NCBI GenBank assembly: GCA_017477425.1
Contig: JAFUVT010000029.1
Span: 1 to 64,000, forward strand
Direction of reading: 5' to 3'
Source: Bacteroidales bacterium
GTDB taxonomy: Bacteria; Bacteroidota; Bacteroidia; Bacteroidales; F082
DNA: 64,000 nt
This document shows, piece by piece, positions 118 through 42,730 of the stretch (its first letter is position 1; every line of letters starts with the position of its first letter). A program made the translations under genes and the position numbers. The notes below the pieces were generated by a model. That model saw only the letters and a program-made list of their open reading frames with translations. It ran no database searches and was not told where the DNA came from.

Positions 118-2513
118 GTTACGCGCTGGCATATACCACCCACTTCCGAAGCCTTGACAATACGCTTTGGGACATTGGGATTTACATCGACGGCTACGAT
201 GCCAAACCTGTGGAGATTTGTCTTGAAGGCGACGAGCCGTGTGTCATCGAATGGCAGGAAACGGGAAAAATGGATGTGGTGCAATCGGCCACCTGCACCC
301 TACGTGTGTCGAACGAAAGAGACCGGCAAATGGTGCTGTTGATGAATAAAACGGATGCTGCCATCATTGTCAACCGCAATGGGAAATCGTATTGGTGTGG
401 TTTCTTGGACGATGCCATCTACGAGGAACCCTATAGCTTCACCAAGGGTTATGTGACGGAACTCCCATTCACCGACTTTGGAGTCCTCAACCGCATCCCC
501 TTCACACTTTCCGGCAAGCAGAGTGTGGGTGCCATCGTGCTCGACTGCCTTGAAAAAATCATCGGCCTTGGTGCCATTTTCACTGTCAATATGTACACCT
601 CGCTCCTTGAGCCCGAGAAAAACCAGCCCGTCACACTTGACATGCTCTACATCAACGCCGACCGATTTTCCTCTGACGGGGACTCGTGGGGAAAGATGGC
701 GAAGAAGCGCGATGTCCTGGAAGAGATACTGCGTCCGCTCGGTCTGCGTATCATGCAGAAAAACGGGCAGATTTACATCTACGACATCGAATACCTCCGC
801 GACCACGACAACTTTTACAACTACCCTGTTTGGAAAGGAACCGATGCCTACCTAAAGGGCAGCGAGACCTTCGGATGGTACGAGGTCGCCTTTGAGCCAG
901 ACACAGTGAAGACGCTGGCCGAAGACGGCCTTGACTACGACTCAAGCCAATGGAATGACAGCGAGAAATACTTTGCCAAGAGCTATGACTTGGAGACCGA
1001 GACGGACAGCGACATCGGGTTCTATTTGGAGGTCAGGAACTATGCCTTTCAAGGGTCCAAGGTTCAAAAGTCGAGCAATGCCCGCTATTTCCGCACGAGG
1101 TCGGTCTTTACCGACAGCAACGACATAGGAGTGGCGTGGCGCATCAAATGCAAGGAAGTCCTTTATAACATCATATACAATGGCCATACGATACCCGTGG
1201 TCGCCGACACGGTTCTTCTGGGGAATCAGGCCGTGTGTCTTAACAGCAATGTGGAGGAAGTGTTTTGGATGGAAACCGGCTACTTGCCGCTTGCCCCGGA
1301 CAAGAATAAATACCAATTGCGCGTCAATCTGGATTTCCAGATAAGTTTCCGACCAAATCCTTTCGACAATCCGCCCGATGAATGGGCCGGAACACAAGAT
1401 TACTACGCGATGGAAGCTCATTGGGAGAATGACGCGGGTGTGAACGCATACTTGGTGCCTGTGATTCTCGAGGTGCTTGATGACCACGGGGATGCAGTGT
1501 ACCATTATGAGAACGCCGATTATGAGACCCACGGAGGCGATGTTTACAACCTGTATGCAACAGATGTCGTGCGTCCTTTCGGCATCAACCAAGGTCGTTG
1601 GATTGCCGGGGCTGGAACATACGGCCAAATGTATCTTGCCTATTACAATACAGACAACAATGATGACCCTCTTATTGAAAAGGACTGGGTGACCAACCGC
1701 ATCGCATCGCCTGCAAACTCGGCCATTAACGGGACACTCTATAGGGTACGCGATGACGGTGAATATGTCAGCCTTCCACCCGTGGCAGGCAGGTTGCGCC
1801 TAACTGTCGGAAACGGCATATTCGTGACCAAATACGCTTTATATGGCTCTTATGCAGCCCAGTTCAATGGCATATACGGTTTTGCGCAAGCCCTTTGCTG
1901 GCAACTATATCGCAACCCAAAGATTACATTGGTGAAGGCCGACCGTAGAGAGGACGGCATTGACGATGAAAATGTCTATGAGCGTGATATGATAAACCTT
2001 TACGCGGATAGCATCAGCGAAACCGTGAAAGCTGGATGTTGGAGAAAAGGCATTGCGCCTTCTTCTCGCGGGCTCTTTTTCAACGCCAGCGGGGTCGTTT
2101 GGGAAAAATTCATCAAAAACGGTTCGTCACGGACTCTGGAGGAACACCGCTTGCGCTGCATCGAAGACCAGACATTCTACACACAACCCGTAATATCTGG
2201 AACGGCTGAACTTGATGTCCAGTTCTGCGCGAAGCGTGAAAGGAGCACATCAGGGGTGTTCCTTGTCACCGCGCTTCGCCAGGATCTCCACCAAGACATC
2301 GAGGAAGTAACGATGGCCAGAATAGCCAACGTGGGCGGGTTCTGCTACGACTATTATTGGAACGATGCCGTTTGTGTCAAGACAGAGGCAATCCAATACA
2401 ACTTCGCTTGGAGCGGCCCGATTTGCGCAAAGGAACTGAAACCTGAATGGTCTTTTGTTTGGGAAAAACCAATATGCGTAACAGTAGAAAAGAAAACGGA
2501 AAAAGACAACTAA
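114..2513 (+). CDS. Large phage tail protein (distal tail/tip-like)
   Basis: A 799-residue protein with no signal peptide or membrane segment, rich in aromatic residues and Asp/Asn as is usual for beta-structured tail components. It overlaps the tape-measure C-terminus by 4 bases and is followed 12 bases later by a small tail-associated gene, the usual order of the distal tail/baseplate part of a siphovirus-like prophage. I recognise no enzymatic motif. It probably forms the tail tip or hub beneath the tape measure; the exact structural role is inferred from gene order only. Confidence 0.6.
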   Translation: MSYALAYTTHFRSLDNTLWDIGIYIDGYDAKPVEICLEGDEPCVIEWQETGKMDVVQSATCTLRVSNERDRQMVLLMNKTDAAIIVNRNGKSYWCGFLDDAIYEEPYSFTKGYVTELPFTDFGVLNRIPFTLSGKQSVGAIVLDCLEKIIGLGAIFTVNMYTSLLEPEKNQPVTLDMLYINADRFSSDGDSWGKMAKKRDVLEEILRPLGLRIMQKNGQIYIYDIEYLRDHDNFYNYPVWKGTDAYLKGSETFGWYEVAFEPDTVKTLAEDGLDYDSSQWNDSEKYFAKSYDLETETDSDIGFYLEVRNYAFQGSKVQKSSNARYFRTRSVFTDSNDIGVAWRIKCKEVLYNIIYNGHTIPVVADTVLLGNQAVCLNSNVEEVFWMETGYLPLAPDKNKYQLRVNLDFQISFRPNPFDNPPDEWAGTQDYYAMEAHWENDAGVNAYLVPVILEVLDDHGDAVYHYENADYETHGGDVYNLYATDVVRPFGINQGRWIAGAGTYGQMYLAYYNTDNNDDPLIEKDWVTNRIASPANSAINGTLYRVRDDGEYVSLPPVAGRLRLTVGNGIFVTKYALYGSYAAQFNGIYGFAQALCWQLYRNPKITLVKADRREDGIDDENVYERDMINLYADSISETVKAGCWRKGIAPSSRGLFFNASGVVWEKFIKNGSSRTLEEHRLRCIEDQTFYTQPVISGTAELDVQFCAKRERSTSGVFLVTALRQDLHQDIEEVTMARIANVGGFCYDYYWNDAVCVKTEAIQYNFAWSGPICAKELKPEWSFVWEKPICVTVEKKTEKDN

Positions 2514-2525
2514 AACCTTACAGAA

Positions 2526-2840
2526 ATGGCATACATCAACACAGGCTACGCACGATGCGCAACACTGACCGTCACCAAGGGAGATTATTTGCATTCCTAC
2601 GATATGCGATCGGGCTTCATATATGGCGGCACAACATACGCATCACTCTCCAACGACGGCTTTGCCCAACTTTCGGACAGAGACTATGAACGCAGAAGGG
2701 CTGACTTCATCTCGTATGTCTATTCCCTTGAGCCAGGCCTTCAGACCGACTGCCCCGACATGACGCAGGGCAGCGTGGAATACGACACCGTGCTTTGCCC
2801 GCTTTCCCAGTTGGGCAACCAATCAAACGAAGAAGAATAA
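2526..2840 (+). CDS. Small phage protein, unknown function
   Basis: A 104-residue soluble protein (MAYINTGYARCATL...) lying 12 bases after the tail protein and in the same operon. It begins with a segment of Gly, Tyr and Thr and ends in an acidic NEEE tail. I do not recognise a domain. Its position as the last gene before a strong hairpin at 2908-2958 suggests it closes the structural (tail) operon of the prophage. Confidence 0.5.
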   Translation: MAYINTGYARCATLTVTKGDYLHSYDMRSGFIYGGTTYASLSNDGFAQLSDRDYERRRADFISYVYSLEPGLQTDCPDMTQGSVEYDTVLCPLSQLGNQSNEEE

Positions 2841-2907
2841 CCATTGGCAGGGCCACGAAAACGGCCCCCGCCTCCAAAGTCAGGCCCTTACCCCTGACAA
2901 TGACAAA

Positions 2908-2958
2908 GGTGCCACAACACCACGGCAGAGGCCGTAAGCCTCTCGGTGTTGTGGCACC
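2908..2958 (+). terminator. Two-tier hairpin closing the phage tail operon
   Basis: A perfect 14-bp inverted repeat (arms 2908-2921 and 2945-2958) encloses a second stem, AGAGGC pairing with GCCTCT. It is followed by TATTTGTTTGT, only moderately T-rich. It lies between the last tail gene and the methyltransferase gene, so a terminator or RNA-processing element is the simplest reading; a phage operator is the alternative. Confidence 0.5.
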
Positions 2959-3017
2959 TATTTGTTTGTAAATGTAAGGGACTGCAAAAGTACAAAAAAC
3001 AACAAACACAAAACAAC

Positions 3018-3860
3018 ATGAAAGAAGAAAAGAAAACCTACACCCAAGCCCCACTGCCATTCATGGGGCAGAAACGCAGATGGAACCAGGAATTCAAACG
3101 AATCCTGAAAGCCGAGTTCACCCATTGCAACACCTTTGTCGACCTATTTGGAGGAAGCGGTTTGCTCTCCCATTTCACGAAGTCAGTGCGCCCTGACGCC
3201 ACGGTCATCTACAATGACTTCGACGACTATTCGCGCCGTCTGGAGGCCATACCGACCACAAACGCATTGCTGGCGGAACTCCGCGAGGTCATGGGTGACT
3301 ATCCTGGCAACAAACGGATCGAAGAGCCCTACCGAAGCCGTGTGTTGGAAACCATTGCAACGTATGAAAATCGTGGCTTTGTGGACTACATCACGCTTTC
3401 GGCATCCATCCTGTTCTCGGCCAATTACGCCACCTGTTTTGAGGAATTGCTGAAGGCATCGCTTTACAACACGCTCAAGGCCTCCGACTATTCCGCAGAC
3501 GGCTATCTTGACGGTTTGACCGTAACCCATAAGGATTACAGGGAAGTCTTCAAAGAATGGGAAGGCAGGGACGGGGTTTGCTTCCTGATTGACCCGCCAT
3601 ATCTTTCCACCCAGAGTTGCACCTATTCCAACTATTGGAGGCTTCGCGACTATCTTGACGTATTGCACACGCTCAACGGGACGAATTATTTCTACTTCAC
3701 CTCCGAAAAGAGTAGCATCATTGAGTTGTGCGACTGGCTCGACAAGGAATACAGGAAGGGCAACCCATTTGAGGGTGCGACGCGCATAGAGCTCAACACG
3801 CACCTCAATTACAACTCTGGCTATACGGACATCATGTTATACAAACACATAAAAGGATGA
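3018..3860 (+). CDS. DNA adenine-N6 methyltransferase (Dam/D12 class), prophage-encoded
   Basis: 280 residues with the class-alpha (D12) amino-methyltransferase order: an N-terminal PFMGQKRRW segment (FxGxK/R-type motif), the SAM-binding motif I FVDLFGGSGLLS at about residue 43, and the catalytic motif IV DPPY near residue 194. It would methylate the exocyclic amino group of adenine using SAM. ATG 3018 is preferred over an in-frame ATG 72 bases upstream that lies inside the hairpin region, because family similarity begins just after it. It overlaps the next gene as ATGA. In a prophage the likely role is protecting phage DNA from restriction. Confidence 0.85.
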   Translation: MKEEKKTYTQAPLPFMGQKRRWNQEFKRILKAEFTHCNTFVDLFGGSGLLSHFTKSVRPDATVIYNDFDDYSRRLEAIPTTNALLAELREVMGDYPGNKRIEEPYRSRVLETIATYENRGFVDYITLSASILFSANYATCFEELLKASLYNTLKASDYSADGYLDGLTVTHKDYREVFKEWEGRDGVCFLIDPPYLSTQSCTYSNYWRLRDYLDVLHTLNGTNYFYFTSEKSSIIELCDWLDKEYRKGNPFEGATRIELNTHLNYNSGYTDIMLYKHIKG

Positions 3861-4495
3861 ACAAGTATTATCAAACTCTCGCGAACATCGTCGCGAACGG
3901 TCAGCAACAGACCAACAAGAAAGGGGAAATCCACTATCTCCTCAACCAGCAACTGGACTTGCGCCCAGGCGACTTGCTGGACATTTTCGAAGGGCACAAC
4001 ATAGCCCGAAAGAAACTCCGCAACGAACTGCAACTATTCATGCAGGGCGAACGCCTGACGGAGCGATACCGTGAAGCGGGCATCAGTTGGTGGGACTATT
4101 GCGGGCCAATCCTCGTCAACAGTTATCCCACCTATTTCGAGAAACTTCCGCGCCTGATAGCCAAAATCAACGCCGAAAAGCGAAGCAGCAAGAACTATGT
4201 GCTTTTCCTTGGCGAAACGGGTGCAGAAAGCAACCAAGCCCCGTGTTTGAGTTTGGTGCAATTCCAGATTGACAAAGGGGAATTGGTCGTTTCGGCGTAT
4301 CAGCGTTCGTCTGATGCGAACCTTGGGCTGCCGTCAGACCTTTATCATCTGTATCTGATGAGCCGACAGATAGACCTGCCGTTGAAGTCAATCACGCTTT
4401 TCCTTGCGAATGTACACATCTACGAAACCAACCTTGAAGCGACCAAACAACTGCTTTCGGGCAACGAGGAAGTCAAGTTCGTATTGAATGTGTAA
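3857..4495 (+). CDS. Thymidylate-synthase-fold protein with Asn177-to-Asp change (possible dCMP-type pyrimidine modification enzyme)
   Basis: 212 residues that follow thymidylate synthase from end to end. The N-terminus MNKYYQTLANIVANG matches the family start. The catalytic Cys is Cys130 in APCLSLVQF; the dUMP-contact block is YQRSSDANLGLPSD (Arg150, Ser151, Asp153); the ribose-contacting His and Tyr are in ANVHIYE (187, 189). At the position of E. coli Asn177 it has Asp161, the change that marks dCMP-preferring members such as T4 dCMP hydroxymethylase. The two Arg of the SRR phosphate loop and the N-terminal Arg are missing, and the last 35 or so residues, including the closing C-terminus, are absent. 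It is coupled to dam by an ATGA overlap. The fold is fairly sure; substrate and activity are inference. Confidence 0.65.
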   Translation: MNKYYQTLANIVANGQQQTNKKGEIHYLLNQQLDLRPGDLLDIFEGHNIARKKLRNELQLFMQGERLTERYREAGISWWDYCGPILVNSYPTYFEKLPRLIAKINAEKRSSKNYVLFLGETGAESNQAPCLSLVQFQIDKGELVVSAYQRSSDANLGLPSDLYHLYLMSRQIDLPLKSITLFLANVHIYETNLEATKQLLSGNEEVKFVLNV

Positions 4496-4541
4496 ATGGC
4501 TTTTTAATAGCCTTTGAAGCACAATTTAACCCCTAAAAACG

Positions 4542-4575
4542 AATCAGGCACGAAGTTCAAACCTCGTGCCTGATT
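4542..4575. terminator. Hairpin at the prophage right end
   Basis: A perfect 12-bp stem (4542-4553 with 4564-4575, AATCAGGCACGA) and a 10-base loop sit 46 bases after the last phage gene. Read on the minus strand it is followed by CGTTTTTAG, so it could terminate in both directions. It lies between phage DNA and the porin fragment, near the inferred attachment junction. Confidence 0.45.
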
Positions 4576-4631
4576 TCGGAAAAAGTTGTATTTTTCAATT
4601 TAGAAAGATGTACTTTTCGTTTTTTCGATTA

Positions 4632-4826
4632 TACAAGAACGTGAAAATGGCCCTCAACTACCAATATGTCAACAACGACCGCTACGCCAACGGCAAAGGC
4701 AAACTCTATGTCGGTCTCGATGCCGCTGGCAACCCGACCAAGGACTTCACCCAAGTGGCTGCCCCCGATGGCGAGGCTGGCGTGAACTACCACATGTTGC
4801 TGGCTCGTTTCCAGATCGCTTTCTAA
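4632..4826 (+). pseudogene. Outer-membrane porin, C-terminal fragment (prophage-disrupted)
   Basis: The reading frame shows YKNVKMALNYQYVNNDRYA, then a loop, then HMLLARFQIAF and a stop. This is the pattern of the last two transmembrane beta-strands of a phosphate-selective-porin-like (porin O/P) barrel, ending in the aromatic residue that barrel assembly recognises. There is no signal peptide and no upstream porin sequence; the preceding bases belong to the prophage end. I infer that the rest of the gene lies beyond the other prophage end, outside this window. An alternative is a small orphan fragment left by a deletion. Confidence 0.55.
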
Positions 4827-4864
4827 TCCATCAGATTGTCTAACCCTTTAAAATTGAGAACACT

Positions 4865-6190
4865 ATGAAAAAGATAATGTTTGTGGCATTAGCCCTTTTG
4901 GTCGGTTTGGCTTCCTGCGTCAAGGATGAGCAATACCCTGGCATCAACATTGCGAATGTTAGCTACAGCCCGACCGCAGTCACTGAATATTCCGACGTCA
5001 CAGTAACGGCTACCATCACCAGCTTCAAGGATTTCACCGCCAAGTTGGTGTATTCCACCGACGCAGCTAACAAGGCAGAAGAACTTGCCATGACGGCTGG
5101 TGGAGAAGATGTCTACACCGCCATCATCCCAGCTCAGCCTGACGGAACGAAGGTGAGCTTCTATGTGCAAGCCATGAATGGCGAGGTTACCGCCGTTTCG
5201 CCCGCCATGGAATACGAAGTGGGTGCCGTCGCCGTTGACTACAGCGTGCTCCGCCTCAACGAGTTGAATGGCAACGACAAGTTTATCGAAATCTACAACG
5301 CTGGTGCCGATGCCATCAACCTGAATGGCGTCTACATCGAGAAAGACGGTGCCCAGAATTGGCTCGCCGACAACACCGTGACCATCGAAGCCGGTGGCTA
5401 CATGTTGCTCTATAGCGAGGACGTCACCCTCGACCATCCCGAAGTGCCCGAGGCGCTGATCTTCCACAGCGGCCTCTCTGCCAAGAAGAACGTCCGCATC
5501 CAGCTCTTCACGCCTACGGGAGCCTCCATCGACGACTTCAACCTGGTCGACATCGACCAAAACGGTGCTGCCTACGGCTACAGCGGCAACCAAGCCCCGG
5601 CTTCCTATAGCCGCAATGCCGATGGCAAGTGGTATTATGCCGATGCCACCCCAGGCGCTGCCAATGTTGACGGCGACAACATCGTCCTCGGCCTCGAAGG
5701 CGGCGACACTCCAGAGCCTCCAGCGGGTCCCGACTACACCAACCTCGTCCTCAACGAACTGAACGGCGACACCAAGTTCATCGAGTTCTACAACAAGGGC
5801 GACCTCGACCTGCCGATGGAAGGCATGTACATCATGAAGGACGACTACATCGCTGGTGCCACCTGGACCGCCGATGCCAGCGTCGTGGTTCCCGCCCATG
5901 GCTATGTGCTGCTCTACAGCGTCGACGTGCTTGCCGACCATCCGGAACTGCCCGAAAACCTCTTCTTCAACAGCGGCCTCTCCGCCAAGAAAACCGTCCG
6001 CATCACCCTCTTCATGCCCGATGGCACGGTGAGAGACGAGTTCACAAGAGGCACGGAATGGGGCTTGACCATCTCCAACGTGGCTCCACAATCCTATGCT
6101 CGCACTCCCGACGGCGGCGACTGGAAGTTGGCCGACCCGACCCCGGGCGAAGCCAATCCCGCCACTGGCGACGACATCCCGCAGGAATAA
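4865..6190 (+). CDS. Lipoprotein with two lamin-tail domains
   Basis: 441 residues. The signal peptide ends in the lipobox LASC (Cys19), giving an outer-membrane or surface lipoprotein. Residues about 25-120 form a beta-sandwich-like segment. They are followed by two lamin-tail (LTD) repeats, recognisable by LRLNELNG.DKFIEIYN and LVLNELNG.TKFIEFYN, each continuing to an AxYSRNxDGKW or SYARTPDGGDW motif and a PTPGxAN end. LTD domains in Bacteroidota are found on exported proteins and are thought to bind ligands or aid cell-surface anchoring. It ends GDDIPQE with no T9SS domain. It probably lay downstream of the intact porin. Confidence 0.75.
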   Translation: MKKIMFVALALLVGLASCVKDEQYPGINIANVSYSPTAVTEYSDVTVTATITSFKDFTAKLVYSTDAANKAEELAMTAGGEDVYTAIIPAQPDGTKVSFYVQAMNGEVTAVSPAMEYEVGAVAVDYSVLRLNELNGNDKFIEIYNAGADAINLNGVYIEKDGAQNWLADNTVTIEAGGYMLLYSEDVTLDHPEVPEALIFHSGLSAKKNVRIQLFTPTGASIDDFNLVDIDQNGAAYGYSGNQAPASYSRNADGKWYYADATPGAANVDGDNIVLGLEGGDTPEPPAGPDYTNLVLNELNGDTKFIEFYNKGDLDLPMEGMYIMKDDYIAGATWTADASVVVPAHGYVLLYSVDVLADHPELPENLFFNSGLSAKKTVRITLFMPDGTVRDEFTRGTEWGLTISNVAPQSYARTPDGGDWKLADPTPGEANPATGDDIPQE

Positions 6191-6335: not shown

Positions 6336-6980
6336 ATGGCAAAAGAAGAAATGAAAATCGGCGAAGAGTCGAAACCCAGATTCGAATTCCGCTCCTTCGG
6401 ACAGTGCTTCTGCGAAGCCCACAAGCGTATGGCTCGCCTTTCGGCACCCGTCCCTGAAAAAGTCTGGGAGCGCCTCAGCGATGAGATCTACATCATCTCA
6501 CGCAAGAACGACATCAACAACACCAAGATCCGTGACGGCAAGATGGACATCAAGACCTATGTGCAGACTGTCGACGGCTTGGAGCAGTGGAATCCCCTCA
6601 TGAAAGGCGAGTTCCCCATCAGCCGCGAAGTGCTCGAGAAGGAAGTGTTCCCCGCTTTCATGGTCGAGATGCCCAAGCTGACCAAGGACACCTACACCTA
6701 CGACGAGTTCATCGCTATGGTGAAGGCCAACCCCGACCTGGCTGCCGTGCGCGTCCACAAGCGCCGCTTTGGCTATATGGTGAACGACACCATCTGCGAG
6801 TTTGGCGAAGTGCTCATCAACGGCGCCAAGGTGGTGACCATCAACTCGGAGTCGACCGAGATCGAAGACATCAAGAAGACCATCAAGGATGTAGGTCTCG
6901 AGGGTGTCGAAAACATCAACTATTTACAGGCTATCAAGCGCGTCATCGGCATGTCCGACAAACCGCTTGCAAACGAATAA
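6336..6980 (+). CDS. Conserved protein, possible divergent CYTH-like fold
   Basis: 214 residues, soluble. The segment EIYIISRKNDINNTKIRDGK followed by MDIKTYV and GLEQWNPLMKGEFP resembles the beta-tunnel strands of CYTH-type triphosphate-binding proteins, and CEFGEVLINGAKVVTINSES resembles the later strands. The gene lies 6 bases upstream of a clear CYTH-domain gene, which supports a related or partnered role. The canonical ExExK signature is not seen, so activity is uncertain. A 47-base A/T-rich leader follows the inverted repeat at 6199-6276. Confidence 0.5.
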   Translation: MAKEEMKIGEESKPRFEFRSFGQCFCEAHKRMARLSAPVPEKVWERLSDEIYIISRKNDINNTKIRDGKMDIKTYVQTVDGLEQWNPLMKGEFPISREVLEKEVFPAFMVEMPKLTKDTYTYDEFIAMVKANPDLAAVRVHKRRFGYMVNDTICEFGEVLINGAKVVTINSESTEIEDIKKTIKDVGLEGVENINYLQAIKRVIGMSDKPLANE

Positions 6981-6986
6981 ACGACT

Positions 6987-7463
6987 ATGGCACAGGAAAT
7001 TGAAAAAAAATTTTTGGTAAAGGGTGACTTCAAGTCGGAGGCCTTCAAGGCCACGCGCATCACCCAAGGCTATCTCTCCAGTGTGCCCGAGCGCACCGTC
7101 CGCGTCCGCGTGAAGGGCGACAAGGGCTTCATCACCATCAAGGGCATCGGTAACGCCTCTGGCGCCGCCCGCTTCGAGTGGGAGAAAGAGATTCCCGTCG
7201 ACGAGGTGCAACAACTGCTCGAAATCTGTGAGCCTGGCGTCATCGACAAGACCCGCTTTCTCGTCAAGAACACCGATGGCAAGCACACCTGGGAAGTGGA
7301 CGAGTTCTACGGCGACAACGACGGCCTCACCGTCGCCGAAGTCGAGCTCACCGACGAGAACGAGCCCTTCGACAAGCCTGCATGGCTCGGCGAAGAGGTC
7401 ACCGGCGACCCCAAGTACTTCAACTCCATGTTGATGAAGAACCCGTATAAGAATTGGAAATGA
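6987..7463 (+). CDS. CYTH-domain protein (inorganic triphosphatase / class IV cyclase-like)
   Basis: 158 residues spanning one complete CYTH domain. It starts MAQEIEKKFLV, the ExExK metal/phosphate signature, followed by QGYLSS, RTVRVRVKGDKGFITIKG, RFEWEKEIP, the EVDEFYGDNDGL and AEVEL acidic strands, and the closing WLGEEVTGDPKYFNSML. Family members cleave triphosphate compounds such as tripolyphosphate or thiamine triphosphate in the cytoplasm; short bacterial stand-alone versions are usually inorganic triphosphatases. It is 6 bases behind the CYTH-like gene, likely one transcript, and ends just before a palindromic terminator. Confidence 0.85.
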   Translation: MAQEIEKKFLVKGDFKSEAFKATRITQGYLSSVPERTVRVRVKGDKGFITIKGIGNASGAARFEWEKEIPVDEVQQLLEICEPGVIDKTRFLVKNTDGKHTWEVDEFYGDNDGLTVAEVELTDENEPFDKPAWLGEEVTGDPKYFNSMLMKNPYKNWK

Positions 7464-7473
7464 TTGTCAAATT

Positions 7474-40520: not shown

Positions 40521-41144
40521 ATGAAAATCAAATTAATTCTTCTCGGCTTGCTCGTCGCCCTGGCAATGCCCGCCTTCGCACAGCGCGACACCATCCGAAG
40601 CAACAAAAACGAGTTCAGCTACGGCTACGGACACATGCCTGCCAGCAGCTTCCGCTTCCGTCCAGGTTGCAGGATCTATCCTGAAACGGACAACATCGGA
40701 GCCATTTATGTCACCTACACGCGCCGCCTCACCAAGGTCGTCGGCATTGGCATCACCGCCTGCATCGACCCCATCCATCTCGACTACAACGGTATGGTAA
40801 ACGGCGAATACTCCCCCGTCTGCAAGGTGCGCGAAAACAGCATCGCCATCCTGCCTCACCTGAAAATCAACTGGCTGAACACCAAGTATGTGAACCTCTA
40901 CAGCAAGGTGGCACCCCTTGGCGTGCGCTATTGCACCTACAACCAAAAAGAATTCTTCCCCGACCTCTATGAGGTGACGTCGCCCTTTGACTCCTTCTCC
41001 GACAGGATCGGCTATGCCTACCAATTCACGCCCATCGGCGTGGAGGTTGGCACCAAGCGCTGCGCCGGATTCCTGCAAGTCGGCATGGGCATGGAAGGCA
41101 TGATCAGCATCGGTTTTCGTTACGGACTAAAAGATAAGGAATAA
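40521..41144 (+). CDS. Secreted beta-barrel-like protein
   Basis: 207 residues with a signal peptide ending PAFAQ at about residue 20. The strands GAIYVTYTRRLTKVVGIGITA, ILPHLKINWLNTKYVNLYSKVA, YQFTPIGVEVGTKRCAGFLQ and GMISIGFRYGLKDKE indicate a small outer-membrane barrel. It is 21 bases after the previous gene and 5 bases before the next. Function unknown. Confidence 0.55.
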   Translation: MKIKLILLGLLVALAMPAFAQRDTIRSNKNEFSYGYGHMPASSFRFRPGCRIYPETDNIGAIYVTYTRRLTKVVGIGITACIDPIHLDYNGMVNGEYSPVCKVRENSIAILPHLKINWLNTKYVNLYSKVAPLGVRYCTYNQKEFFPDLYEVTSPFDSFSDRIGYAYQFTPIGVEVGTKRCAGFLQVGMGMEGMISIGFRYGLKDKE

Positions 41145-41149
41145 ACACC

Positions 41150-41710
41150 ATGAAAAGACACTTGATTTATTGCTTGGCCATCATCGCCATAATGACTTCC
41201 TGCGTAAAAGAGCCTACCATCCTTCGCCGACTTCCAGCCGAGGACGCTGCCGCCATTCCCTACCAGAAGGGGCAGACGCTCGACTTCATGAACGAGAACG
41301 GCGACACGCTCACCTTCACCGTCACCTACGACGAGATGAAACCTTTCTCGGAAGACAATTGGAGTTTTAATAACTACGACGCGAAGATGTCCATCATCCG
41401 TCAGCCCTGGTGCTATGCGCGGACGGTGGTGCTTGCTTGCCATACCGATAGCGCTTCCCAGGATTTGATATTCACTGTGATTCCCGAAAAATACCTTTAT
41501 TTCCGATGGAACTACGAACTTGAAATTGTCGACATCAACCTCAATGGCGCAACGGAGACTGTGGAGGTGAACGGCATGACATACGAGAACGTCCGCGTCG
41601 ATTCCCACACCAACCCCACGGGCGAATATTTCCATCTGTGGTACTACAACGAAGAAGTCGGCCTGATTGCCGTCAAGAACCAGAGCCATTCGCTGACGTT
41701 AGTGCCGTAG
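41150..41710 (+). CDS. Lipoprotein, NigD-like beta-sandwich (tentative)
   Basis: 186 residues with a lipobox MTSC (Cys18). The mature part starts with VKEPTILRRLPAEDAAAIPY and has the beta-rich block DTLTFTVTYDEMKPF, IFTVIPEKYLYFRWNYELEI, and YFHLWYYNEEVGLIAVKNQ. The layout resembles NigD-type lipoproteins of Bacteroidota, but the match is weak. It ends the envelope cluster and is convergent with the GreA-Nudix gene. Confidence 0.5.
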   Translation: MKRHLIYCLAIIAIMTSCVKEPTILRRLPAEDAAAIPYQKGQTLDFMNENGDTLTFTVTYDEMKPFSEDNWSFNNYDAKMSIIRQPWCYARTVVLACHTDSASQDLIFTVIPEKYLYFRWNYELEIVDINLNGATETVEVNGMTYENVRVDSHTNPTGEYFHLWYYNEEVGLIAVKNQSHSLTLVP

Positions 41711-41713
41711 TTT

Positions 41714-42730
41714 TTAGTCTTTGATAAAAAGATTGAGATAGTCATCCATTTCAGGGGGCATGGGAAGGTTTTCCTTGGAAACAACCGTGAAAACATAAAC
41801 CAGCTCCCTTTCGGTTTTGGCCTCCCTGATGTATTGCCGCTTCAACTTCGGATTCACGCCTGAAAAGCCAAGCGTTTCCGCCATCTTCCGCTTGAGTGTT
41901 TTCTCCGGCGTTTCGCCAAAGGCCACATGCCACCAGTAAAGTCTTGTGGCCTCGCCCTTGCCATTCATGACATGCAGATGCACGACTGGATGCAGCATCT
42001 TGTTGCCTTGGTGCAATTCCACATACATTGCACGACCAATGATGTTGCCACGCTCGTTGACGACGGGCAAGAACTCGGTGTTATTCACCTCAGGCTCAAA
42101 CCGTTGTGACCCTTGCTCTTCGGGCAATGCGTCAATGGCTTCGGCTTCTGCAAGCGGCTCTTCTTGTGTTATCGGATCGGGGCTTACCTCGATGGTTTTC
42201 CGCGGGCGTCTTCCTGTTGTTGCCATTGTTGTTGTAGGTATGTCATGAACCATCTGTGTGAGTGGCATCGGCTCAAACGACACTGCCTCCACCGTGATTC
42301 TTTCCGAGCTCTTCAACTCGATGACATCGCCCGCCCTTTTCCCAGTCAGCGACTTCGCCAACGGCGAGATGAACGAAATGAGGCCTTTGTTCACATCCGC
42401 TTCGTCCACGCCAACAATCCGCACCACGCGCCCGCCATAGCGCACCCACGCGCCAAAACTCACCTTTTCCTTGTCGGCCTTGGAAAGGTCGATTTCAACC
42501 GCACTATTAATACGGCTAATGAGCAACTTCATCTTTGCCTCGATGAAGTTGCTCATGATGTAATTGTCACCTGCCTTGACGCGCTCAGCTTCAAGGTTTT
42601 TCAGTTCTTCTTTGAGCACGTCAAGACCTTCTTTTGTGACATAGTTGGGCACACCCTCAGGCAGATAAGCCCGCATCGGCACCCTCGGAATCTCTTCCTG
42701 GTCGCCTTCCTTGATGAAACCTCTGCTCAC
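41714..42730 (-). CDS. GreA/GreB-family factor fused to a degenerate Nudix-like domain
   Basis: 338 residues from GTG 42730. The start MSRGFIKEGDQEEIPRVP is the usual N-terminus of Bacteroidota GreA-like factors and overlaps the preceding stop as GTGA. Residues about 20-85 form the antiparallel coiled coil (NYVTKEGLDVLKEELKNLEA), and residues about 90-150 the GreA/GreB C-terminal domain (VSFGAWVRYGGRVVRIVGVDEA, FISPLAKSLTGKRAGDVIEL). After a linker, residues about 215-335 follow Nudix/IDI order (VVNERGNIIGRAMYVELH, HPVVHLHVMN), but the box reads GETPEKTLKRKMAETLG, lacking the central catalytic Glu pair. It is transcription-related by family; the role of the Nudix part is unknown. Confidence 0.65.
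   Translation of the reverse strand: MSRGFIKEGDQEEIPRVPMRAYLPEGVPNYVTKEGLDVLKEELKNLEAERVKAGDNYIMSNFIEAKMKLLISRINSAVEIDLSKADKEKVSFGAWVRYGGRVVRIVGVDEADVNKGLISFISPLAKSLTGKRAGDVIELKSSERITVEAVSFEPMPLTQMVHDIPTTTMATTGRRPRKTIEVSPDPITQEEPLAEAEAIDALPEEQGSQRFEPEVNNTEFLPVVNERGNIIGRAMYVELHQGNKMLHPVVHLHVMNGKGEATRLYWWHVAFGETPEKTLKRKMAETLGFSGVNPKLKRQYIREAKTERELVYVFTVVSKENLPMPPEMDDYLNLFIKD

Follow-up and report, generated by a model that had tools for sequence, protein, structure and literature searches.

The window, a stretch of 64,000 nucleotides that forms the start of contig C8 (JAFUVT010000029.1) of a Bacteroidales bacterium genome, opens inside a prophage, at the right end of which lie two overlapping genes (Table 1). 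The first encodes a D12-class N6-adenine DNA methyltransferase, and the second a short protein of the thymidylate synthase (TS) superfamily, here called the TS-like protein. The coordinates, frames and ATGA overlap (3857-3860) are those given by a first-pass annotation made from the sequence alone, which described a phage dam gene coupled to a gene of the thymidylate synthase fold with the Asn-to-Asp change known from deoxycytidine monophosphate (dCMP) hydroxymethylase. The methyltransferase, read from the ATG at 3018, matches MethyltransfD12 (E 5e-7) and possesses both motifs that characterize the class, the S-adenosylmethionine (SAM) motif FxGxG and DPPY. Among its orthologs DPPY is found in 161 of 162 distinct sequences and a stricter form of the SAM motif in 142 of 162; L061 and L079, whose D12 genes belong to a different subtype, fall outside this count and inside the 200-locus count given below. 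In PADLOC this protein matched type II and orphan methyltransferase models and, weakly, PD-Lambda-5, whereas the TS-like protein had no match.

Table 1. Features of the prophage right end in the window
Feature	Position	Strand	Basis or remark
Phage protein, function not assigned, phrog_30639, 799 aa	114..2513	+	PHROGs match; homolog in relatives 3' of tape-measure gene
Small phage protein, 104 aa	2526..2840	+	Precedes the pair; kept in close relatives
Inverted repeat, 25-nt arms, 84% complementary	2897..2969		Between preceding phage genes and methyltransferase gene
D12-class N6-adenine DNA methyltransferase, 280 aa	3018..3860	+	FVDLFGGSGLL and DPPY motifs; MethyltransfD12
TS-superfamily (TS-like) protein, 212 aa, cytosine-type (Asp161)	3857..4495	+	PF00303, alignments, fold searches
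Hairpin 3' of TS-like gene, 16-nt arms, 94% complementary	4542..4575		Also in 8 other aligned rows (two identical)
Phage right end, two TGTA(C/T)TTTT boxes, last bases ...CGATTATA	4576..4633	+	Flanks of related copies diverge beyond

Fold and active site of the TS-like protein

The TS-like protein matches PF00303 (E 1.7e-17, residues 3-203), and fold searches with its predicted structure bear out the TS fold that had been claimed. Residue equivalences were taken from MAFFT and hhalign alignments with E. coli ThyA and T4 gp42. The nucleophilic Cys130 corresponds to C146 of ThyA, Arg150 and Ser151 to R166 and S167, Asp153 to D169, His187 and Tyr189 to H207 and Y209, and the catalytic Glu57 to E58. 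Asp161 is found at the position of N177 of ThyA and Asp179 of T4 gp42, as the annotation had proposed.

Relatives were fetched from IMG/VR (best 80 of 126), from genome contigs (best 80 of 265) and with a profile (best 80 of 268), and figures of family diversity are lower bounds. Asp161 and the catalytic residues named by the annotation are invariant in all 185 distinct sequences, and Glu57 is present in 184 of them; one of the two patterns for the genome-contig and profile sets contains Asp161, and a pattern lacking that residue fits 41 of the 53 distinct IMG/VR sequences. A second sample, fetched by a pattern that lacks this site, again reveals Asp161 in 74 of 74 distinct long sequences. It draws on 80 of at least 120 loci listed, one of which (L330) has no TS-like frame, and overlaps the first set in records. 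The Asn typical of enzymes that form deoxythymidine monophosphate (dTMP) is thus replaced throughout both samples. An Asp at this site is named as the cytosine determinant for T4 gp42 (PMC6400193) and for MilA, BcmA and T4 alike (PMC5175136), and, where contigs have modified cytosine, most of their TS homologs carry it (PMC8670742).

The phosphate-site arginines, which had been called missing, are altered rather than lost: R126 is represented by Lys112, R127 by Asn113 and R21 by Lys21, while R166 and S167 are kept. The pair Lys112-Asn113, which the pattern of the second sample fixes, is present in 185 of 185 sequences in place of the Arg123-Arg124 phosphate pair of T4. The Arg21-loop position is Lys in 163 and Arg in 15 of the 185, the T4 residue being Lys28. 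The hydrophobic TS positions Leu143 and Trp83 are both changed, to Gln127 and Cys82, and, compared with ThyA, far fewer residues separate Trp79 from the helix that follows. Only 12 residues come after the last helix of the chain (190-200 in the predicted model), and the ThyA tail has no sequence counterpart; the VIA alignment places the last residues at TS chain ends, with a low predicted local distance difference test score, and a short lid is possible. The absence of a long C-terminal tail is not peculiar, since T4 gp42 is also described as lacking the lid (PMC6400193), and for the same reason it no longer serves as a pointer to an unusual substrate.

In the cytidine monophosphate (CMP) hydroxymethylases MilA and BcmA the 177 site holds Asp, the Arg126 site Lys and the Ser167 site Ala. 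The TS-like protein shares the first two and has Ser151 at the third; it also lacks their C-terminal helices and is encoded by a phage rather than by an antibiotic gene cluster. MilA with Ser at this ribose-site position gains dCMP activity (PMC5175136). Since Lys112 represents the MilA state and Ser151 the deoxyribose state, the substrate expected from these residues is a cytidine nucleotide, probably in the deoxy form.

ThyA is the best match in sequence and structure and shares all catalytic residues; it differs in N177, Arg126-Arg127, Leu143 and Trp83, and in its long tail (264 vs 212 residues). With T4 gp42 the TS-like protein has in common the superfamily, the Cys and Glu, the Asp, the absence of a tail, a small residue for Trp83, Lys in the R21 loop and an origin in phage, but the two are 13% identical, and no kinase, dCTPase or glucosyltransferase gene was seen beside the TS-like gene. 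Neither fold search has T4 dCMP hydroxymethylase in the 50 matches listed, which weighs neither way. The short TS model of methanogen type (TIGR03283, 201 positions) is matched over positions 11-199 (9.4e-10), with a score of 38.3, far under its cut-off of 174.55.

Distribution, linkage and carrier phages

Identity to the window protein ranges from 71 to 96% among the 185 sequences and falls to 63% in the pattern sample; 184 of the 185 are at least 205 residues long. Genome-contig relatives are named as Bacteroidales-type organisms or Bacteroidia, bar one "uncultured bacterium". Of 50,697 phage records, 21 match at 60-80% identity and 1229 below 60%; in the list, where rank reflects the letters covered multiplied by identity, the 21 are followed by a full-length match 26.9% identical over 93% of the query, and partial matches among those listed reach 38%. 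This gap indicates that the family stands apart. Plasmids revealed no intermediates to canonical TS: three Phocaeicola records at 75-80% are followed by matches of at most 25% among those listed (best 10 of 93). Within 99 genomes of the genus there are 8 full-length matches at 74-100%, the window's own genome included, the others being partial and at most 38% identical apart from a deleted copy in the window's genome. Across 395 genomes of the phylum the gene occurs in two, one of which (G348) belongs to another order of the same class. The TS-like gene is not confined to Bacteroidales. It is a mobile, patchy gene, and it is under strong purifying selection: in the same three pairs the ratio of nonsynonymous to synonymous substitution (dN/dS) is 0.05-0.07, vs 0.10-0.12 for the methyltransferase.

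A D12 methyltransferase gene lies on the same strand within 4 kb of the TS-like gene in 152 of 200 distinct loci (the deleted copy included), so that the physical link reported for the window holds for most loci. It is upstream in 78 and downstream in 74, and ATGA-type overlaps (-4) number 17 in each gene order. In the pattern sample the D12 gene accompanies 59 of 74 sequences and a gene with ABC-ATPase and GNAT matches (ABC-GNAT) one, while 14 have neither, nine of these being short-flanked. Viewed from the methyltransferase, 21 of 46 D12 loci have a TS-like gene within 4 kb. The window's own genome has a sister prophage right end (G000:C28:1-3062; L261, L002) in which the methyltransferase gene is deleted and the TS-like protein, having lost residues 1-173, is reduced to a remnant of 39 residues with 97% identity.

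Two side observations concern other genes at such loci. A hankyphage-like record (L009:8926-10032) contains, 3' of the TS-like gene, a phrog_11143 protein of 368 residues with weak ABC-ATPase and GNAT matches below the Pfam cut-offs, a candidate modification or defense gene. A close relative of the window's phage (G101) carries a second, distinct DNA methyltransferase, phrog_67 (L322:2455-3216).

The ortholog in hankyphage p00 also lies at the right end (41030-41668 of 42831), with the D12 methyltransferase on its 3' side at 41764-42618. Every gene of hankyphage is expressed upon induction, and this end is called the "methyltransferase" end (PMC12135933); the word "thymidylate" is absent from the main text of that paper. 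Laboratory Bacteroides thetaiotaomicron offers lysogens as well as a system for inducing them (PMC12135933). The short protein before the hankyphage TS-like gene is annotated as Mor-like in one relative (Pfam Mor 0.0036, below cut-off). Short open reading frames (ORFs) directly precede the TS-like gene at L108:40709-40951, L134:8634-8912, L188:8650-8925, L234:9690-9935 and L235:1345-1587; that of hankyphage is weakly Mor-like, the other four look alike by eye, and the arrangement brings to mind com before mom in Mu.

MuA (phrog_310) was found in 29 of 44 IMG/VR records chosen for length and in hankyphage, the same model also matching 6 of 14 control genomes. The record of the close relative G101 encodes a MuB-type protein (phrog_296, 6.4e-60). 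Nine aligned right ends (two identical, giving eight flanks) share a common sequence to ...GATTATA (~4633) and then diverge, which fits the expectation for a transposing phage. MuA/MuB together with the differing flanks characterize the group as transposable and Mu-like. Hankyphage MuA has no match in the window's own genome, where the contig begins inside the phage. At L016 a tyrosine integrase gene adjoins the TS-like gene and the L017 record (G109) yields no MuA match, from which we surmise that phages other than Mu-like ones probably carry the TS-like gene as well.

Possible functions of the pair

We favor, with moderate confidence, the reading that the TS-like protein is a compact relative of TS that has come to accept cytosine in its active site and aids in modifying cytosine in phage DNA. 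Cys130 would attack C6 of a deoxycytidine nucleotide, Asp161 would hold and protonate N3, and methylene-tetrahydrofolate would donate a one-carbon unit to C5, where the methylene would be finished as 5-hydroxymethyl or, less likely, as 5-methyl or another adduct. The modified nucleotide would then enter phage DNA in replicative transposition; this passage from nucleotide to DNA is the weakest step of the proposed mechanism. Modified cytosine, together with the adenine methylation of the partner, could shield the DNA from host nucleases. Phage Mu carries mom at its right end, and Mom is a GNAT-fold adenine modifier; the TS-like/D12 set may play the role of mom, being likewise of DNA-modification type and at the right end of transposable phages, with no homology claimed. 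Membership in a DNA-modification module, as the annotation suggested, is the likeliest reading and is based on the linkage. Because this linkage is kept whichever gene comes first, it is good evidence that the two act in a common task, DNA modification being the simplest candidate.

A number of observations weigh against this proposal. Hydroxymethylation is associated with an acid three residues before the Cys and a Ser/Thr-Tyr arrangement, and T4 D145N is inactive (PMC6400193). At the place of this water-activating acid the TS-like protein has Gln127, in 185 of 185 and 74 of 74 sequences. Of the marks of a dCMP hydroxymethylase, the Asp named by the annotation is present and the acid is absent, and because of this Gln the identity as a dCMP hydroxymethylase is not established by the residues considered. 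For the water-holding pair (T4 Ser94, Tyr96), MAFFT aligns Tyr93, preceded by Thr92, with ThyA Tyr94, whereas hhalign places Leu86 there; since the alignments differ, it is uncertain which residues correspond to Tyr94 and Val93, and the model is weak at 81-90. In hhalign the family profile aligns with canonical TS/ThyA at a probability of 97.8, vs 12.0 (E 0.0025) for T4 gp42, and being nearer ThyA it suggests that Asp161 probably arose separately. The D12 gene is missing from 48 of 200 loci, two of which have an ABC-GNAT gene and 46 neither; of the latter, 22 have less than ~1.2 kb on one side, and one is the deleted copy in the window's genome. Likewise, 25 of 46 D12 loci (L272-L312), some cut by contig ends, have no TS-like gene within 4 kb. 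MuA was not matched in 15 of the 44 records. Among these 15 are the three records nearest to the window's phage, which at 27-31 kb may be fragments and one of which has MuB. Neither "DNA modification" nor "modification" occurs in the main text of the two hankyphage papers.

T4 needs enzymes of kinase, dCTPase and polymerase type for using hydroxymethyl-dCMP. None of these was found among the hankyphage ORFs scanned, namely MuA, MuB and seven early ORFs of at least 130 residues with PHROGs and ten ORFs with Pfam, short ORFs lying outside the scans. Early ORFs 5244-5642 and 6559-7464 had no PHROGs or Pfam match, and three late ORFs no Pfam match. Three explanations are open to the proposal, namely that kinases of the host do this work, that only part of the cytosine is substituted, or that dCMP is not the substrate; this gap keeps our confidence from rising above moderate and is why readings with another substrate or nucleophile are retained.

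One such reading, put forward tentatively and with low confidence, is a third cytosine chemistry of the TS superfamily, neither the water addition of T4 nor methylation, in which the substrate is deoxycytidine triphosphate (dCTP) or cytosine in DNA, or another nucleophile traps the C5 methylene. The Gln in place of the acid, the lack of a long tail and the loosened phosphate clamp are the basis offered for it; with D12 the protein would be the Bacteroidota counterpart of Mu mom and, if so, would make a new modified cytosine in one step in widespread gut phages such as hankyphage.

A rather unlikely alternative is that the protein acts in counter-defense or changes the cytidine-nucleotide pool (e.g., a cyclic or free ribonucleotide), the methyltransferase being a mere accessory gene that occupies the same slot. 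The Lys that replaces Arg126, a state shared with the CMP enzymes MilA and BcmA (PMC5175136), agrees with this, as does the variability of the slot, which holds ABC-GNAT instead in 2 of 200 loci and neither gene in 24 loci with at least 1.2 kb on both sides, the deleted copy in the window's genome being one of the 24; Ser151 rather than Ala at the ribose site does not, the D12 linkage in both orders exceeds what a shared slot needs, and PADLOC gave nothing. It is unlikely, too, that cytosine is modified in the DNA polymer, or as di- or triphosphate, rather than as dCMP. A changed phosphate clamp (R126 to Lys, R127 to Asn throughout the 185) and an active site opened by the missing long tail and the shortened stretch after Trp79 could admit a larger substrate, no phage kinase would be needed (none was among the hankyphage ORFs scanned), and the partner acts on DNA; yet Arg150/Ser151 are invariant, and so is the pair His187 and Tyr189, the equivalents of which in TS and T4 gp42 contact a free 3'-OH (PMC5175136). 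Furthermore, we know of no TS-fold enzyme that acts on polymer.

That the protein is a dTMP-making TS after all, supporting phage DNA synthesis, appears quite improbable. The records of the annotated phage matches (H1-H20) do name it thymidylate synthase and its profile is nearest canonical TS, but Asp replaces Asn177 in all 185 sequences, N-to-D mutants shift toward dCMP (PMC8670742), the long tail is missing, Leu143 and Trp83 are changed, and the host encodes a ThyA-like protein of its own at C1:50463. A degenerate relic, to which the short chain and the loss of the tail and one phosphate arginine might point, is extremely improbable given 184 of 185 chains of at least 205 residues, invariant catalytic residues and the dN/dS values above.

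What GenBank names thymidylate synthase in its records of hankyphage and related gut phages probably does not deserve that name. No study of the family was found in a search of open-licence PubMed Central papers, PMC3338817 having as its subject the thymidylate synthase of a different phage. If the protein alters cytosine, transposable phages that are widespread in the gut possess a system for DNA modification of which our searches found no study, and this could bear on phage escape from restriction and on DNA sequencing and detection.

Layout of the phage right end

The inverted repeat at 2897-2969 is a possible transcription boundary, and together with the one after the TS-like gene it suggests that the pair may be its own unit. 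The hairpin at 4542-4575 scored as terminator-like on the minus strand only, and terminator-like sites in 2500-5000 (four) are not above the shuffled expectation of 3.1 (sd 1.6). A promoter scan, whose models do not cover Bacteroidota promoters, revealed no sigma-70-like promoter on the plus strand before the pair.

Contigs C8 and C28 begin with identical phage bases, and the remaining phage is therefore probably a collapsed repeat. Contig C39 was considered as the missing part and rejected: it has a phrog_310 match of 324 bases only, and C39:1-35000 has no blastn match (E 1e-5) to the phage loci L190, L191 and L193 of the relatives. Just 3' of the prophage end, the window ORF 4865-6190 is lipoprotein-like, with two stretches (LNELNG..KFIE..N) that look similar by eye.
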